Of a DNA stretch of 9,157 bases, positions 1,729-8,913 are shown piece after piece. The stretch covers positions 1-9,157 of the forward strand of contig CALXXB010000048.1 in assembly GCA_944392525.1 (NCBI GenBank). Reading direction: 5' to 3'. Origin of the DNA: an uncultured Clostridia bacterium (GTDB lineage Bacteria > Bacillota_A > Clostridia > TANB77 > CAG-508). The number at the start of each line of letters is the position of its first letter. The first letter of the stretch is position 1. Made by a program: the position numbers and the translations under genes. Under the pieces are notes generated by a model, which worked only from the letters and a program-made list of their open reading frames with translations, had not been told where the DNA came from and did no database searches.

Positions 1729-2145
1729 TTATTCAATTGGAATAAATTTCTTTTCTGGAAGTTCTTTTTTGTCCTCTTTTTTAGGTACTTCAAGTGTTAA
1801 AGTTCCATTTCTAAATTTAGCTTTTATATCTTCTTCTTTTACATTGTCACCAACATAGAAGCTTCTTGAACATTCTCCAGTATATCTTTCTTTACGTACA
1901 TATTTTCCTTTTTCATTATCATCCTCTGATTTATCTACTTTTGCATGTACTGTTAAATATCCATCTTGTATTTCAATTTTTATTCCGTCTTTTTCATATC
2001 CTGGTAAATCAATATCAATTAGGTATTTGTCTTTTTTCTCCTTAATATCTGTTTTCATTAATTTGCTTTCACCTTCTGTGAAAAATGGATCTCTAAACAT
2101 TTCATCCCATAAATCAAAATCATGTCTTCTTGGTATCATCATCAT
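1729..2145 (-). CDS. Small heat-shock protein, Hsp20/alpha-crystallin family
   Basis: ATP-independent holdase chaperone that binds unfolding proteins and forms oligomers in the cytosol. The 138-residue product has a short N-terminal arm (MMMIPRRHDFDLWDEMF), an alpha-crystallin domain at about 30-121 containing the conserved AKFRNGTLTLEVPK (109-122), and a C-terminal IPI at 135-137, the I-x-I motif that docks into neighbouring subunits. Start chosen at 2145: GAAGGAG at 2155-2161 lies nine bases upstream, and the resulting N-terminus matches the family. The frame stays open to an ATG at 2172, which has its own weaker AAGGTG (2180-2185) seven bases upstream and would add nine residues (MKIKKELII), and to an ATG at 2199 with no ribosome site. 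The gene is monocistronic, with its own promoter, CIRCE operator and terminator. Confidence 0.95.
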   Translation of the reverse strand: MMMIPRRHDFDLWDEMFRDPFFTEGESKLMKTDIKEKKDKYLIDIDLPGYEKDGIKIEIQDGYLTVHAKVDKSEDDNEKGKYVRKERYTGECSRSFYVGDNVKEEDIKAKFRNGTLTLEVPKKEDKKELPEKKFIPIE

Positions 2146-4165: not shown

Positions 4166-5809
4166 TTAACTATTTAATATAGAATAGAAATAATATCCCC
4201 CTGTAATATTTTGTACTCTATATCCATTTTGCATTAATATTCTACAAGCTATATAACTTCTAAGTCCTGTGCGACAATAAACTAAATATTCTTTGTTTTT
4301 ATCCAATTCGTCTAATCTATTTCTTAAATCATCTAACGGGATATGAATAGCATTTTCATACGCTCCTTTTACATACTCTTCATCAGTTCTAACATCTAAA
4401 ACACAGATTTCTTTGTCTTTCTTTAAATCTTTCACTTGGTGCCATGTAACTGTCTTAACTAATCCTTCTATTTGATTTACTATACTATTTCCTAATATAT
4501 TTACAGGACTTTTAGCTGAAGAAAATGGTGGTGCATAACATAGTTCTAGTTTTTCTAAATCATATGCTGTCATTTTCATCTTTATTGCTGTAGCTAAAAT
4601 ATCACAAATTTTATCTACTCCTTCTTTTCCCCAAACTTGTGCTCCATAAATTTGTCCTGTTGTTCCATTATATAATGCTTTTATAGTTATCATTTTAGCT
4701 CCTGGATAATATCCTGCATGTGAGTTCGGAGAAACTATAATTGATTTATAATCTAATTTTTCATGTTTACACATTCTTTCATTTAATCCCGTCATTGCTA
4801 AATTATAATCAAAAATCTTTATAATGCTACTTCCAATAGTTCCCTCATAAGTCTCAATTTTTCCTACTATATTATCAGCAACTATTCTTGCTTGTCTATT
4901 TGCAGGACCTGCTAAAGGTGTATACGTTCTTTCCTTTGTGATAGAATTGATTACACTCACAGCATCTCCCAAAGCATATATATCTTTATTTTTTGTTTGC
5001 ATATGTTCGTCTACTAATATTGATTCATTCTTCATACTTATTGTCAATCCTGCATCAGACGCAAGTTTTCCTTCTGGCTTCACGCCTATACATAATACAA
5101 CAAAATCAGATTCAATTACTCCATTTTCTAAAGTAATCTCTAATTTTTCCCCTTCTTTTATTTCATTTACTCCATTATTTAGTATAATATTTATACCATG
5201 TTTTCGTAACTCTCTATGTACAAAACAAGCCATATCCTCATCTAGTGGATTTATTAAATGTGATCCTTTTTGAACGATTGTTATATCTAAATCATGATAA
5301 TTACTTAAATTCTCTGCCATCTCTACACCAATATATCCACCACCAATTATTGTTACATTTTTTATATCATTATTTTCTATATATTCTTTTATTTCTATAG
5401 AGTCTTCTACAGTTCTTAATGTTTTTATTTTTTTACTTTCTAGGTGTTTAAATGGATTAATAGGCTCCGCTCCTGGAGATAAAACTAATTTATCATAAGT
5501 CTCTTCATATTTTTCTTCACTATTTAATTTTTTAACTATTATTTTTTTCTCATCTGGTATTATTCTCTCTACCTCTTGTCTTATTCTTACATCTATATTA
5601 AATCTTTTATTAAACGACTCTGGCGTTTGTAATAATAAATCCTGTTTTTCTTTTATAACATCACCCACATAATATGGAAGACCACAGTTTGCAAATGAGA
5701 TATGATTTCCTCTATCTATCATTATGATTTCTGCTTTTTCATCTAATCTTCTGAGCCTTGCAGCTGTAGTTGCTCCACCTGCTACTCCTCCTATAATTAT
5801 AACTTTCAT
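4166..5809 (-). CDS. CoA-disulfide reductase-like FAD flavoprotein with C-terminal rhodanese domain
   Basis: Pyridine nucleotide-disulfide oxidoreductase of the CoADR-rhodanese type, expected to use NAD(P)H to reduce CoA disulfide, CoA persulfide or related polysulfide species in the cytosol. The 547 residues show an FAD-binding VIIIGGVAGG (3-12), the single redox cysteine C42 in SFANCGLPYY (no CxxxxC pair, as in CoADR), a NAD(P)H-binding IIGGGYIGVE (around 155), an FAD-contacting IYALGDA, a dimerisation domain, and from about residue 455 a rhodanese domain with LDVRTDEEY and active-site loop YCRTGLRS (C512). The fused length matches the CoADR-RHD subgroup and not the plain ~440-residue CoADR. 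AGGAGG (5815-5820) five bases upstream fixes the start. It lies 75 bases after the thioredoxin gene, with a weak hairpin between. Which sulfur substrate it prefers cannot be told. Confidence 0.93.
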   Translation of the reverse strand: MKVIIIGGVAGGATTAARLRRLDEKAEIIMIDRGNHISFANCGLPYYVGDVIKEKQDLLLQTPESFNKRFNIDVRIRQEVERIIPDEKKIIVKKLNSEEKYEETYDKLVLSPGAEPINPFKHLESKKIKTLRTVEDSIEIKEYIENNDIKNVTIIGGGYIGVEMAENLSNYHDLDITIVQKGSHLINPLDEDMACFVHRELRKHGINIILNNGVNEIKEGEKLEITLENGVIESDFVVLCIGVKPEGKLASDAGLTISMKNESILVDEHMQTKNKDIYALGDAVSVINSITKERTYTPLAGPANRQARIVADNIVGKIETYEGTIGSSIIKIFDYNLAMTGLNERMCKHEKLDYKSIIVSPNSHAGYYPGAKMITIKALYNGTTGQIYGAQVWGKEGVDKICDILATAIKMKMTAYDLEKLELCYAPPFSSAKSPVNILGNSIVNQIEGLVKTVTWHQVKDLKKDKEICVLDVRTDEEYVKGAYENAIHIPLDDLRNRLDELDKNKEYLVYCRTGLRSYIACRILMQNGYRVQNITGGYYFYSILNS

Positions 5810-5832
5810 CTATTCCTCCTAAAATATAAAAT

Positions 5833-5865
5833 AAATTAGTCTAGAAAAATATTCTAAACTAATTT
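5833..5865 (-). other. Intercistronic hairpin between trx and the flavoprotein gene
   Basis: Arms 5833-5845 and 5853-5865 pair as 8+4 bp around one mismatch, loop seven bases. The minus-strand tail (ATTTTATATTTTA) is only moderately T-rich, and the stem is almost all A-T, so it would be a leaky terminator at best. It could equally protect or tune the 3' end of the upstream message. I see no convincing promoter between it and the flavoprotein start. Confidence 0.45.
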
Positions 5866-5884
5866 AATAAAATATTTATTTTCA

Positions 5885-6340
5885 TTATTTAATCATACTT
5901 AAAATTTCTTCTTTATCAATAACACCTACTGAACGATTAATTTCATTTCCGTTTTTAATAACAACTAATGTAGGTATTGACATTACTTGATATTTTATTG
6001 CTACATTTTGTGATTCATCTACATTTACTTTTACAACTTTGATATCATCATTTTCAGCTGCTACTTCATCCACTGTTGGTGATAACATTTTACATGGGCC
6101 ACACCAATCTGCATAAAAATCTACCAATACAGGTATATTACTTTTTAATACTTCTTGTTCAAAAGTATCATCATTTACTTTTACAACGTTCATACTTTCT
6201 TCCTCCTTATTTTCATTTATTATATTTGCCTGCTCACTTCCTATTATTTCTAGCCCTTTTTTATTTATAAATATGCTAGCTATAACAATAACCACAACAA
6301 GCAAAGCAAAAATTATAAACCATATTATTTTCTTCTTCAT
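5885..6340 (-). CDS. Membrane-anchored thioredoxin (WCGPC) with probable internal second start
   Basis: Thiol-disulfide oxidoreductase. The 151-residue product has KKK then one hydrophobic segment (about 5-26), a charged linker (27-49) and a complete thioredoxin domain (50-151) with WCGPC (C80, C83) and the cis-proline motif SIPT (P123). Positive charges before the segment predict that the thioredoxin domain faces outward. Start chosen at ATG 6340: AGGAG (6346-6350) is five bases upstream and overlaps the ccdA stop codon, so translation is coupled; an open GTG at 6346 would overlap that site and is rejected. Residue Met50 (ATG 6193) is preceded by AAGGAGG at eight bases, and translation from there gives a 102-residue protein with C31 and C34, the classic soluble thioredoxin size. 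The active site is CGPC, as in reducing cytosolic thioredoxin, not CEPC-like as in ResA. CcdA upstream is the obvious partner. Confidence 0.94.
   Translation of the reverse strand: MKKKIIWFIIFALLVVVIVIASIFINKKGLEIIGSEQANIINENKEEESMNVVKVNDDTFEQEVLKSNIPVLVDFYADWCGPCKMLSPTVDEVAAENDDIKVVKVNVDESQNVAIKYQVMSIPTLVVIKNGNEINRSVGVIDKEEILSMIK
6193..6208 (-). promoter_or_regulatory. Internal ribosome binding site and start within trx
   Basis: Minus-strand AAGGAGG (6202-6208), eight bases, then an in-frame ATG ending at 6193. The coding sense of this stretch is Asn-Lys-Glu-Glu-Glu-Ser-Met. The Lys and first Glu use AAG and GAG, the rarer choices in this AT-rich window, and it is these codons that create the Shine-Dalgarno. 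The downstream product MNVVKVNDDTF... is the standard beginning of a soluble thioredoxin. Confidence 0.6.
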
Positions 6341-6349
6341 AAACACTCC

Positions 6350-6985
6350 TTAAAAGAATATCATATAAATTCCCATAATTATCAAAATTATTCCAGAAAT
6401 CTTTTTAATTATATTATAATGGTTTTTTACAAAATTAAATACTTCTTTTAGCTTTTCTAGTAATGCTGCTGATATTATAAATGGAATTCCCAATCCTACT
6501 GAATATACAATCATCAGAAGTACTCCTTTTATCATATCTTGGTTCTTAGCAATTAAAAGTAATGCTGAAGCTAAAAATGTTCCTATACATGGAGTCCAAC
6601 TAATTGAAAATAGCATTCCAAATATCATTGATTTAATAAAATTTAAATCTTTAGCTTTTTTATTTGCACTCTTTGTTTTATTTAAGAACTTTATTTTTAT
6701 TAGCTCCATATAGTTTAAACCAAGTAATATTATAATAATACCAAATGCTATTTTAACATATTTGATATTATTACTAATAATTCCACCAAAACTACTTGCA
6801 AGTATTGATAAAAGTATAAAAATTATTGTAAATCCTAATACAAATCCTATTGAATTTATTATAGCTTTTGATACTTTTTTATTATCTTCACCAATAAAAT
6901 ATGATATATATATTGGTAACATTGGTAATATACATGGTGAAATAAAACTTGCAAAACCTTCTATAAATGTAAAAACATAGTCCAT
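6350..6985 (-). CDS. ccdA: CcdA-type transmembrane thiol-electron carrier
   Basis: Membrane protein of the CcdA/DsbD-beta family that takes electrons from cytosolic thioredoxin and passes them to thiol proteins outside the membrane. The 211-residue product has about six hydrophobic segments and the two expected redox cysteines: C18 in FISPCILPMLP in the first segment, and C133 in SWTPCIGTFLAS in the fourth. Length is normal for stand-alone CcdA. The ATG at 6985 is preferred, 11 bases from AAAGGA (6997-7002); an in-frame TTG at 6991 would add two residues and sits only five bases from that site, so it remains possible. The ribosome site overlaps the stop codon of the Ham1-like gene, and the ccdA stop overlaps the ribosome site of trx, so the three genes are translationally linked. 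No cytochrome c genes are seen, so the role here is more likely thiol reduction via the adjacent thioredoxin. Confidence 0.93.
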   Translation of the reverse strand: MDYVFTFIEGFASFISPCILPMLPIYISYFIGEDNKKVSKAIINSIGFVLGFTIIFILLSILASSFGGIISNNIKYVKIAFGIIIILLGLNYMELIKIKFLNKTKSANKKAKDLNFIKSMIFGMLFSISWTPCIGTFLASALLLIAKNQDMIKGVLLMIVYSVGLGIPFIISAALLEKLKEVFNFVKNHYNIIKKISGIILIIMGIYMIFF

Positions 6986-7000
6986 TATCAATATTTTCCT

Positions 7001-7615
7001 TTACATATTTTTTAAAATTTCGCAAATGGCATCCACAGCATTTTCTTTATTGTCTTCATTTTGCTCTTTTGCTCTTATTTCCATTTCTTCTTCAGTCAAA
7101 TCTGTAAAATATTTATTAAATTCGGGAATAATGCTTATTGAATCTAATGGATAACCAGGATGTCTCTTTTTAGATTCAGTATTTACTAAATAGAACTTAG
7201 ATTTAGCAAAACTATACGTCTTAGTTTCTTCGCCATTGTATATAGCAATTCCATTTACCCATTTAGCTATAAGTTTTCCTCCAAATTCATTTGCCAGATT
7301 TTTATAATACTCAATCATTTCTTCATCTGTAAGTGTTTTTCCATTTACTCTTCTTACATGTGTACCTGGTTGTTTATTTTCTGGCACATTTTCAAAAAAT
7401 AAATTTGTGTCAATTCCTATTGTTATTTTTTTAGCTAATTTTCCGTAAGTTTCTGCTTTTATACAAGCATTTTCTATCGCTGTCTTCCCCGTCTCTTCCA
7501 CATCAATATTTAATCCTAAATCTTTTAATGTTAAAACTCTAATTCCATGCTCTTCTAATTTTTCCTTATAACTTTTTATTTTAGCTGGATTAGTTGTTGC
7601 AAATAATACTTCCAT
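7001..7615 (-). CDS. Divergent Ham1/RdgB-like non-canonical purine NTP pyrophosphatase
   Basis: Cytosolic house-cleaning enzyme family that hydrolyses dITP/XTP to the monophosphate so that deaminated purines are not built into DNA or RNA. The 204-residue product starts with LFATTNPAKIKSY (4-16), matching the nucleotide-binding T/SxNxxK, continues with VEETGKTAIENACIKA (39-54, with E41 and K53 where RdgB has them) and has Asp69 in GIDTNLFF in place of the usual DDSGL. The later family signatures are weak: FGYDPxF is replaced by HPGYPLDSI, and the SHR motif near the C-terminus is not recognisable (EIRAKEQNED). Specificity may therefore differ from RdgB. The start at 7615 is fixed by a strong GGAGGAG a few bases upstream. 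It is the second gene of the dfx cluster. Confidence 0.8.
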   Translation of the reverse strand: MEVLFATTNPAKIKSYKEKLEEHGIRVLTLKDLGLNIDVEETGKTAIENACIKAETYGKLAKKITIGIDTNLFFENVPENKQPGTHVRRVNGKTLTDEEMIEYYKNLANEFGGKLIAKWVNGIAIYNGEETKTYSFAKSKFYLVNTESKKRHPGYPLDSISIIPEFNKYFTDLTEEEMEIRAKEQNEDNKENAVDAICEILKNM

Positions 7616-7637
7616 TTCTCCTCCATATTTTAAGAAT

Positions 7638-7662
7638 GCCTACTAAATTATATTTAATAGGC
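7638..7662 (-). other. Intercistronic hairpin between dfx and the Ham1-like gene
   Basis: Arms GCCTACTAAA (7638-7647) and TTTAATAGGC (7653-7662) form a 10-bp stem with one mismatch and a five-base loop. On the minus strand it is followed by ATTCTTAAAATAT, not a T-run, so efficient termination is unlikely. It may act as a processing or stability element that makes dfx the most abundant part of the transcript. Confidence 0.45.
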
Positions 7663-7672
7663 TATCTAAAAA

Positions 7673-8056
7673 TTATTCTTCTACTTCTTTTTTCCATAAT
7701 CCATGTTTGTTACAATATGCATAAATTGTTGCTCCTTTTATATAAGGGAATCTTACTTCTGCAGCTTGTTCTGGATATAATTTTACTGTTATTTCTTTGT
7801 TTTCTTTTACTAGACTAATCCATTCTATATAATGCTCTTTTTCCATAACATGATTTACTTTTACCAATAATTCATCATCTACTTTTTCATAAGTTGGTAC
7901 ATGTTTTTCTACTGCTGCATCTACTGAGTTTGGAACTAATTTTTCCATCGGCTCTCCACAGCATACAATTCCACATCCTTTGCAATTGCAATCTTCAATT
8001 ACCTTTACAATTGCTCCACATGATTTACATCTTTTTATAACTAATTCGTTTTTCAT
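7673..8056 (-). CDS. dfx: Desulfoferrodoxin (superoxide reductase, two-iron type)
   Basis: Superoxide reductase of anaerobes: it reduces superoxide to peroxide without making oxygen. The 127-residue product has both parts of a desulfoferrodoxin. The N-terminal Dx domain carries C10xxC13 and C32-C33, the rubredoxin-like centre I ligands. The catalytic domain has the full centre II set H52 (EKHVP, with K51), H69, H75 (EHYIEW), C115 and H118 (YCNKHGLW), at almost the same numbers as the Desulfovibrio protein. Two details differ: three extra cysteines, C23, C25 and C28, in DCNCKGCG between the two halves of centre I, and HVM at 69-71 where HPM is usual. Start at 8056 is chosen because AAAGGAGG (8065-8072) lies eight bases upstream; an ATG at 8077 lies upstream of that site and about at the predicted transcription start, so it is excluded. 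First gene of the redox cluster. Confidence 0.96.
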   Translation of the reverse strand: MKNELVIKRCKSCGAIVKVIEDCNCKGCGIVCCGEPMEKLVPNSVDAAVEKHVPTYEKVDDELLVKVNHVMEKEHYIEWISLVKENKEITVKLYPEQAAEVRFPYIKGATIYAYCNKHGLWKKEVEE

Positions 8057-8082
8057 AATAAACGCCTCCTTTTTCATTTTGA

Positions 8083-8091
8083 ATTATATCA
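8083..8091 (-). promoter_or_regulatory. Extended -10 promoter of the dfx cluster
   Basis: Minus-strand TGATATAAT (8083-8091) is a perfect extended -10 in the 68-base gap between the ZIP gene and dfx. No good -35 is visible at 17 bases, as is common when the -10 is extended. Transcription from near 8076 gives a leader of about 20 nt carrying the AAAGGAGG site. I saw no clear PerR or Fur box. Confidence 0.6.
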
Positions 8092-8124
8092 TGCTTTTTA
8101 TATTTTGCATAGCTATTTTATTAA

Positions 8125-8913
8125 TTATCCTAAAGCTATGTCTAAAACCATCATTAAAGCAAAGCCAATTGCTACTCCAATTGTCCCTATATTTGAATGT
8201 TCACCTTCTTGTGATTCAGGTATTAATTCTTCAACAACAACATATATCATTGCTCCTGCTGCAAATGATAATAAATATGGTAATATCGGTGTAACTAGCC
8301 CTGTTAATAAAATTGTTATTATTGCTGCAATCGGTTCAACTGCTCCTGATAGCATTCCGTAAAGAAATGCTTTTCCTTTAGATCTTCCTTCTGACTCCAA
8401 TGGCATTGAAATAATTGCTCCCTCTGGGAAATTCTGAATAGCTATCCCAATTGCTAATGTTAACGCTCCTGCCATTGTCATTCCAATAGTTCCATTTGCT
8501 GCAGCCGCAAGAACAACGCCAACAGCCATTCCTTCTGGAATATTATGAAGTGTTACTGCAAAAACAAGCATTATTTCATTTTTTAATTTTGTTTTTACTC
8601 CTTCTGGCTTTTTACTATTTAAATGCAAATGTGGTATTATCGTATCCAAAATTAGTAAAAATCCTATTCCTAATAAAAAGCCAATTAATGCTGGAAACCA
8701 TTCAATTTTTCCTTGTTCTACAGCCATATCCATTGATGGTATTAATAAAGACCATACAGATGCTGCCATCATTACTCCTGCTGCAAATCCTAAAAGTAAT
8801 TTTTGTACTCTTGGTTTTATTTTATTTTTCATAAAGAATACCATTCCTGAACCTAAAGTTGTTCCTAAAAAAGGTATTATTAAACATATTATAATTGGTA
8901 ATGTTTGTTCCAT
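8125..8913 (-). CDS. ZIP-family divalent metal transporter (GufA/ZupT-like)
   Basis: Inner-membrane metal ion uptake protein, likely for zinc and possibly other divalent metals such as iron or manganese. The 262-residue product has eight hydrophobic stretches. The metal-binding signatures are HNIPEG in the fourth segment (H123, N124, P126, E127) and QNFPEG in the fifth (Q160, N161, P163, E164), the pairing typical of the GufA branch rather than classical ZupT with a second His. A short HLHL (95-98) lies at the membrane edge before the cytoplasmic loop (99-111) and may capture metal. C-terminal EELIPE (228-233) is another conserved ZIP element. The start at 8913 has a moderate AAGGGAT ribosome site. 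It ends 68 bases before dfx. A metal link (iron for desulfoferrodoxin) is plausible but not shown, and I see no clear terminator behind it. Confidence 0.93.
   Translation of the reverse strand: MEQTLPIIICLIIPFLGTTLGSGMVFFMKNKIKPRVQKLLLGFAAGVMMAASVWSLLIPSMDMAVEQGKIEWFPALIGFLLGIGFLLILDTIIPHLHLNSKKPEGVKTKLKNEIMLVFAVTLHNIPEGMAVGVVLAAAANGTIGMTMAGALTLAIGIAIQNFPEGAIISMPLESEGRSKGKAFLYGMLSGAVEPIAAIITILLTGLVTPILPYLLSFAAGAMIYVVVEELIPESQEGEHSNIGTIGVAIGFALMMVLDIALG

Follow-up and report, generated by a model that had tools for sequence, protein, structure and literature searches.

Results

A thioredoxin gene with two in-frame start signals lies beside ccdA

We analysed a 9157-nucleotide stretch of DNA from an uncultured Clostridia bacterium, which as a whole we call the window. 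On its minus strand, positions 4166-8913 carry a run of genes in the order zip, desulfoferrodoxin, Ham1-like, ccdA, trx and cdr, and this run, which is kept in whole or in part in many loci of the window's clade, has the look of a cluster for oxygen or sulfur stress. The ccdA gene (6350..6985, minus strand; ATG at 6985, stop at 6352-6350) encodes a DsbD_TM-type membrane electron carrier whose product matches the CcdA/DsbD transmembrane domain PF02683 with 86.3 bits, where the cut-off is 27.1, and PF13386 with 47.1 bits. An earlier note on this DNA, made from the letters alone, had placed a CcdA gene directly upstream of an anchored thioredoxin, and these matches bear that out. Downstream of trx, cdr (4166..5809, minus strand) encodes a CoA-disulfide-reductase-like flavoprotein with a C-terminal rhodanese domain (TIGR03385 and PF00581); its TIGR03385 score of 481.6 bits is under the cut-off of 578.8, and a homologue stands downstream of the trx gene in 12 of 18 clade loci. 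Elsewhere on the minus strand of the window, a 362-aa protein (512-1597) has a hydrophobic stretch at its N-terminus and no Pfam match, and by eye we take it to resemble a cell-wall glucosaminidase. Upstream of an HSP20 gene (1729-2139, minus strand) is the sequence GAGTGCTAAAA (2255-2300), which resembles half of a CIRCE element.

The trx gene, also on the minus strand, has two start signals in one frame. From the ATG at 6340 it encodes a 151-aa membrane-anchored thioredoxin (5885..6340), hereafter the long form, which is preceded by the Shine-Dalgarno (SD) sequence AAGGAG at 6346..6351 that overlaps the ccdA stop codon (duplex −7.7 kcal/mol). The long form begins with MKKK and continues through a single transmembrane helix and a polar linker into a complete thioredoxin domain. 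The helix, which is found in the long form only, spans residues 5-25 (6266..6328; mean hydropathy 3.3 over 19 residues). The linker (6194..6262), which reads NENKEEES just ahead of an internal Met, holds a second SD, AAGGAGG, at 6202..6208, and a spacer of 8 bases (6201-6194) separates this from an ATG at 6191..6193 in frame with the long ORF. Translation from there would give a 102-aa soluble thioredoxin (5885..6193), the short form, with its CGPC active site at 6092..6103 (C31 and C34 in short-form numbering). The positions of the internal SD and ATG, the spacing, the product length and the cysteine numbering given in the earlier note were all exact. In a predicted RNA fold the internal SD is unpaired save for one base, and the internal ATG lies inside a hairpin whose stability (−8.9 kcal/mol, z −2.1) exceeds that of most shuffled sequences, which counts somewhat against easy initiation.

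The short product is a complete thioredoxin by profile matching. Read from 6193 it scores 125.2 bits against the equivalog model TIGR01068 (cut-off 96.8), covers positions 2-102 of the 103 in PF00085, contains the WCGPC motif (W30-C31-G-P-C34-K) and, in alignments with several solved thioredoxins, matches them from the first residue of each. When the long form was compared with models of ResA/TlpA-type CcdA partners, it stayed far below both cut-offs (NF002854, 33.1 bits against 170; NF047696, 23.5 bits against 230). Close relatives of the window have TrxB-like genes.

Comparison set

The comparison comprised 72 anchored thioredoxin genes, or rows: that of the window and those of 71 draft genomes whose completeness is unstated. 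A CcdA scan gave 32 loci from uncultured Clostridia (one titled Candidatus Merdicola faecigallinarum), and family and genus scans extended the set. The 71-genome table combines these 32 loci with hand-chosen anchored thioredoxin frames of about 140 aa or more (a few are shorter); it is not exhaustive and stands for at least 71 genomes in which a TrxA-like gene has a helix as its anchor. Excluded from it were the TlpA-like anchored genes L067 and L068, the second tandem copy in G023, weak TlpA-like extra matches (e.g. in G104 and G024), and G695 and G662. G023 was scored as being without a stand-alone trx gene, and G031 as having the internal start although a stop codon cuts its anchor ORF. The window, as the 72nd row, has no entry for other trx genes, hence genome counts are given out of 71.

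A CcdA match lay within the fetched piece in 70 of the 72 rows (partial in G025 and G032; none for G026 and G336). The long ORF is common, as in a protein-database search with the long form the best 120 of 7899 matches cover 100% of the query at 79-100% identity. Most of the 32 loci have a GGAGG-like sequence together with an ATG ahead of the domain, and the residues that this sequence encodes differ among them (KEE, EEE, GEE, REE, GGE and EEV). In G023, two anchored thioredoxins stand in tandem after ccdA (L042/L196), the first with SD and ATG and the second, far more diverged, with neither, as if roles had been split between them. In G032 (L031, about 4413-6129), the last 43 CcdA residues alone match beside trx, with about 1.6 kb to the Ham1-like gene; ccdA there looks interrupted or rearranged.

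The internal SD and Met are conserved together

We estimated the chance expectation for the internal SD from 305 mechanical ORFs taken from the window and the 32 related loci. As had been claimed, AAG and GAG are minority codons: in the 305 ORFs Lys is encoded by AAA 84% of the time and Glu by GAA 85% of the time. SD duplexes at least as strong as the window's internal one (−11.1 kcal/mol or stronger) preceded 5 of 1271 in-frame internal ATGs, compared with 23% of 274 ORF starts in the same set. When the linker was resampled with synonymous codons at pooled usage, the strength of the window's SD was reached with p = 0.043. Across the 43 rows that have the site, which are related and not independent, this resampling gave p < 0.05 in 38, with a median of 0.024; it was not significant in G001 (0.053), in G009, G011 and G139 (about 0.155) and in G025 (0.76). 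Taken by itself a single sequence is only suggestive, and the case rests on the comparative data. Two candidate measures were set aside. The third-base count within the SD core (G at 78 of 78) is circular, since G bases had served to define that core. Parsimony on 30 rows relied on a sample selected for GGAGG or GGGGG with a spacing of 8, and the clade-only count described below takes its place.

In 42 of the 72 rows an ATG lies between −2 and +1 codons of where the domain begins, and each of these 42 also has an SD of −8 kcal/mol or stronger. Such an SD occurred in 5 of the 30 rows that have no domain-start ATG, and these five comprise four rows with GTG (G063, G047, G157 and G143) and G139, in which an ATG lies two codons on. 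At L173, L174, L175 and L181, which belong to four genomes that each own a soluble trx as well, a strong SD precedes a GTG where the domain begins; the GTG there may be a functional start or part of a decaying site.

The window's clade, picked by the tree only, holds 20 rows. The earlier note had asked whether the SD-making codons and the Met are conserved beyond what the protein requires. Nineteen of the 20 clade rows have G at the SD wobble bases, −13 and −10, whereas about 15% of Lys and Glu codons here have G as their last base. Changes at SD sites −13, −12, −10 and −9 within the clade numbered 1, 0, 1 and 0, compared with a mean of 3.0 changes at each of 18 other linker sites, one of which was unchanged. 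Both changes at SD G sites fall in G027, where GAG GAG has become GAA GAA with Glu-Glu kept, ATG has become ATT, and a stand-alone trx is present. Relatives that keep the Lys-Glu-Glu linker with codons that destroy the SD, or that lose the Met, had been named as the case that would speak against two isoforms; in the 20-row clade G027, itself the owner of a soluble trx, is the only one to keep Glu-Glu without the SD and Met. Outside the clade, G297 is a counter-case, in which the SD is weakened, ATA replaces ATG, and another thioredoxin was not found. Judged from these alignments, the internal SD and ATG are more than a product of chance, and the SD and start codon at the domain boundary are conserved beyond coding need, as predicted for a gene with dual isoforms.

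The internal start tends to be missing where a separate soluble trx exists

Among the 42 genomes with the internal start, another full-length stand-alone Trx was absent from 37, as had been predicted for relatives, and present in five (G006, G019, G022, G294 and G031). Among the 29 genomes in which the internal start is absent, another stand-alone Trx was absent from four (G021, G264, G269 and G297) and present in 25 (Fisher p = 3.3e-10 for the 71 genomes; five genomes rechecked). With GTG scored as a start, the counts became 37/9 versus 4/21 (Fisher 1.6e-7), and without G031 and the contig-edge rows G336 and G026 they were 35/4 versus 4/25 (Fisher 1.9e-10). Gaps in the drafts do not account for the absences in 37 of 42 genomes, since the soluble gene was found in 25 of the 29 drafts that have no site.

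The association was also found when shared descent was modelled, with Pagel's dependent model favoured over the independent one (LR 27.0, 4 df, p = 2.0e-5) on one tree with a midpoint root and bootstrap not settled. The tree of CcdA plus thioredoxin calls for at least 10 changes in the internal-start trait and 14 in the soluble gene. The independent pairs on well-supported branches of this tree (5 pairs, mean 3.5 opposite, 0 same) were too few and did not reach significance, and the CcdA tree likewise held too few well-supported pairs. Over the genomes compared, the inner start tends to be missing where a separate soluble trx exists, and this suggests that one gene may serve both sides of the membrane. 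In G031 (L039), a TAA cuts the anchor ORF, the SD and Met are intact, and a second soluble trx lies beside a TrxB-like gene.

Reductases and other cytosolic carriers

Of the 30 genomes that have a stand-alone trx, 21 have it next to a reductase-like frame: it adjoins a TrxB-like gene in 12 and a small FTR-like frame in 10, G187 having both. The 37 genomes that have only the internal start include 17 with a TrxB-like match above 170 bits and 9 with a weak FTR-like match (23-32 bits), so that 26 in all keep a candidate cytosolic reductase with no stand-alone trx to partner it. All TrxB-like matches are under the NCBIfam cut-off of 343 bits, and the FTR-like matches as a whole score a weak 23-33 bits against a cut-off of 22. 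In the other 11 of the 37, no FTR-like gene and no TrxB-like gene above 170 bits was seen. The gene order in G335 and G296 is ccdA, dual gene, trxB, with trxB following directly. Frames of about 70 aa matching FeThRed_B (PF02943, 25-33 bits) adjoin stand-alone trx genes at L044, L128, L132, L123, L065 and L071 (G030, G270, G272, G294, G073 and G165), and likewise in G029, G063, G266 and G187; going by these matches, they may be a ferredoxin-type thioredoxin reductase. Glutaredoxin, considered as an alternative carrier in the cytosol, gave a match in 53 of the 71 genomes. Nearly all of these matches score 22-36 bits and lie in frames at least about 118 aa long, and stronger small ones were seen in G005 and G006 only.

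Discussion

Two proposed forms from one reading frame

It is very probable that this one reading frame gives both an outward-facing tethered thioredoxin and a cytosolic thioredoxin, likely the cell's only one, and that the two are linked through CcdA. The two-isoform interpretation offered by the earlier note is supported by the comparative evidence. We infer internal initiation, membrane orientation and electron flow; because the absence of another trx was counted in relatives only, we likewise infer the single-thioredoxin status of the window's own genome. In this proposal, ribosomes starting at 6340 would make a thioredoxin tethered by one helix and facing outward beside CcdA, and ribosomes starting at 6193 on a near-consensus SD would make an ordinary cytosolic thioredoxin, probably the sole one of the cell. 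The short form would be reduced by a cytosolic reductase, would serve the cytosol and would hand electrons to CcdA, which in turn would hand them to the long form outside.

A more specific reading, which we consider likely though less so, is that the gene supplies consecutive carriers of one relay, the short form being the sole cytosolic donor to CcdA and the long form the outward acceptor; that the ratio of the two starts sets the exported reducing power; and that lineages switch repeatedly between this state and one with two genes, in which a separate soluble trx exists and the internal SD and Met are lost. If so, internal translation initiation in a bacterium would supply a central redox carrier to two compartments, and the balance of cytosolic and exported reducing power would become testable through the ratio of the two starts. 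Genomes with a second soluble trx, which tend to lack the internal start, would then offer a natural genetic control, and annotating the long ORF alone in these genomes would miss a cytosolic protein.

Several other explanations bear on whether both forms are made and where they face. The anchor is under purifying selection, as its median dN/dS across 16 clade rows is 0.26, against 0.19 for the thioredoxin domain. This argues against the short form alone being made from a gene whose anchor ORF goes untranslated, as do the overlap of the long-form SD with the ccdA stop and the retention of the anchor beside ccdA in rows without the internal start. In 40 of 43 rows the internal SD is the stronger when set against the best SD of the long form, which speaks for the two-form reading. 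That strength and the cut anchor ORF of G031 would also fit a short form made alone, but we give this explanation hardly any credence. From the positive-inside rule and the known partners of CcdA, the long form would be N-in/C-out with its domain outside. Were both forms made and both domains to face the cytosol, the anchor would just dock thioredoxin at CcdA. Positive charges on either side of the helix (MKKK/NKKG) leave room for this topology, but the net charge would favour N-in/C-out, soluble thioredoxin is already present in many rows without the internal start, and in the pneumococcal model CcdA partners are outward-facing (PMC3914529). We therefore regard two cytosol-facing domains as unlikely. 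Equally doubtful is that the short thioredoxin arises from an internal promoter and a short mRNA and not from internal initiation on the polycistronic message: a 9-of-12 promoter-like match does lie upstream of the internal start at 6271-6243, but promoter-like matches in the region are at chance level, with 14 found against 14.2 expected.

The remaining alternative concerns the origin of the gene. In stand-alone trx genes near that of the window (L159, L161-L166 and L168), the leader carries an SD and, read in the trx frame, encodes KEE, as AAAAGGAGGAAAATAAAATG does; soluble rows fall inside a cluster of anchored domains in a tree built on few columns and with weak support. In G329 and G330 the gene order is zip, trx, trxB. 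The simplest story is that a ccdA-linked anchor was fused to a soluble trx that retained its SD, though the direction may be the reverse; anchor loss in some lines is possible. A recent in-frame fusion had been raised in the earlier note, and of that suggestion the leaders favour the fusion, while its recency does not stand: the site occurs in several lineages, in 43 of the 72 rows altogether, and so is neither recent nor just a relic. The same leaders, and the intermixing of anchored and soluble domains, are what could be said for a relic in which the SD and Met linger unused after an anchor was joined in frame to a soluble trx gene. Were the SD unused, it would be expected to decay. In the clade, however, other linker sites change a mean of 3.0 times and the SD G sites have changed in G027 alone, a genome with another trx; loss of the site also tracks the presence of another trx gene, so we consider an unused relic very improbable.

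Comparison with known systems

Dual starts serving two compartments in eukaryotes, and internal starts in bacteria, are known already; a search of the openly licensed literature for the one-gene, two-thioredoxin arrangement beside ccdA found no report of it. In a class-level survey, 391 genomes were searched with CcdA, of which 185 matched at 1e-12, and 50 ccdA places were read (30 given as loci and 20 of further listed rows). A TrxA-like anchored neighbour was found in 4 of the 50 (G007, G039, G695 and G662; 51-93% identity), and the internal SD and ATG, looked for by eye in part of the 50 places, were seen in G007 only. At the other places, 36 of 50 had a match of just 21-39% identity, mostly to part of the domain, and 9 of 50 had none. 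One of the 50 places (L270, in G048) shows a natural fusion, a 425-aa open frame that holds both CcdA and a thioredoxin domain of 43.6% identity. The anchored ccdA neighbours in other Clostridia are presumably TlpA/ResA-type CcdA partners, which resemble the long form in being anchored thioredoxin-fold proteins encoded beside ccdA. The Etrx proteins of Streptococcus pneumoniae are likewise of the TlpA type.

In S. pneumoniae, CcdA gets electrons from cytoplasmic TrxA, which is reduced by TrxB, and reduces an outward thioredoxin-fold protein encoded beside CcdA (PMC3914529). The window is alike in that ccdA lies beside the gene for a thioredoxin-fold partner, here predicted to face outward. It differs in that pneumococcal TrxA and the surface Etrx lipoproteins are products of separate genes (PMC3914529), whereas in the window a single gene seems to supply the two. 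The outer partner here is, in place of an Etrx lipoprotein, a plain TrxA domain carried by a transmembrane helix. The single gene for yeast glutaredoxin Grx2 has two in-frame starts and places its products in the mitochondrial matrix and the cytosol; it shares with the trx gene a thiol-redox carrier, two in-frame starts and, as proposed for the trx gene, two compartments. Unlike the trx gene it is eukaryotic and has no internal SD, and its forms are reported to act on separate protein sets and not as consecutive carriers (PMC11653698). The long and short forms of SpaO from type III secretion provide an example of a functional internal start in a bacterial gene that yields a C-terminal isoform; unlike the two forms proposed for the trx gene, both SpaO forms belong to one cytosolic assembly and the compartment is unchanged (PMC13059759).
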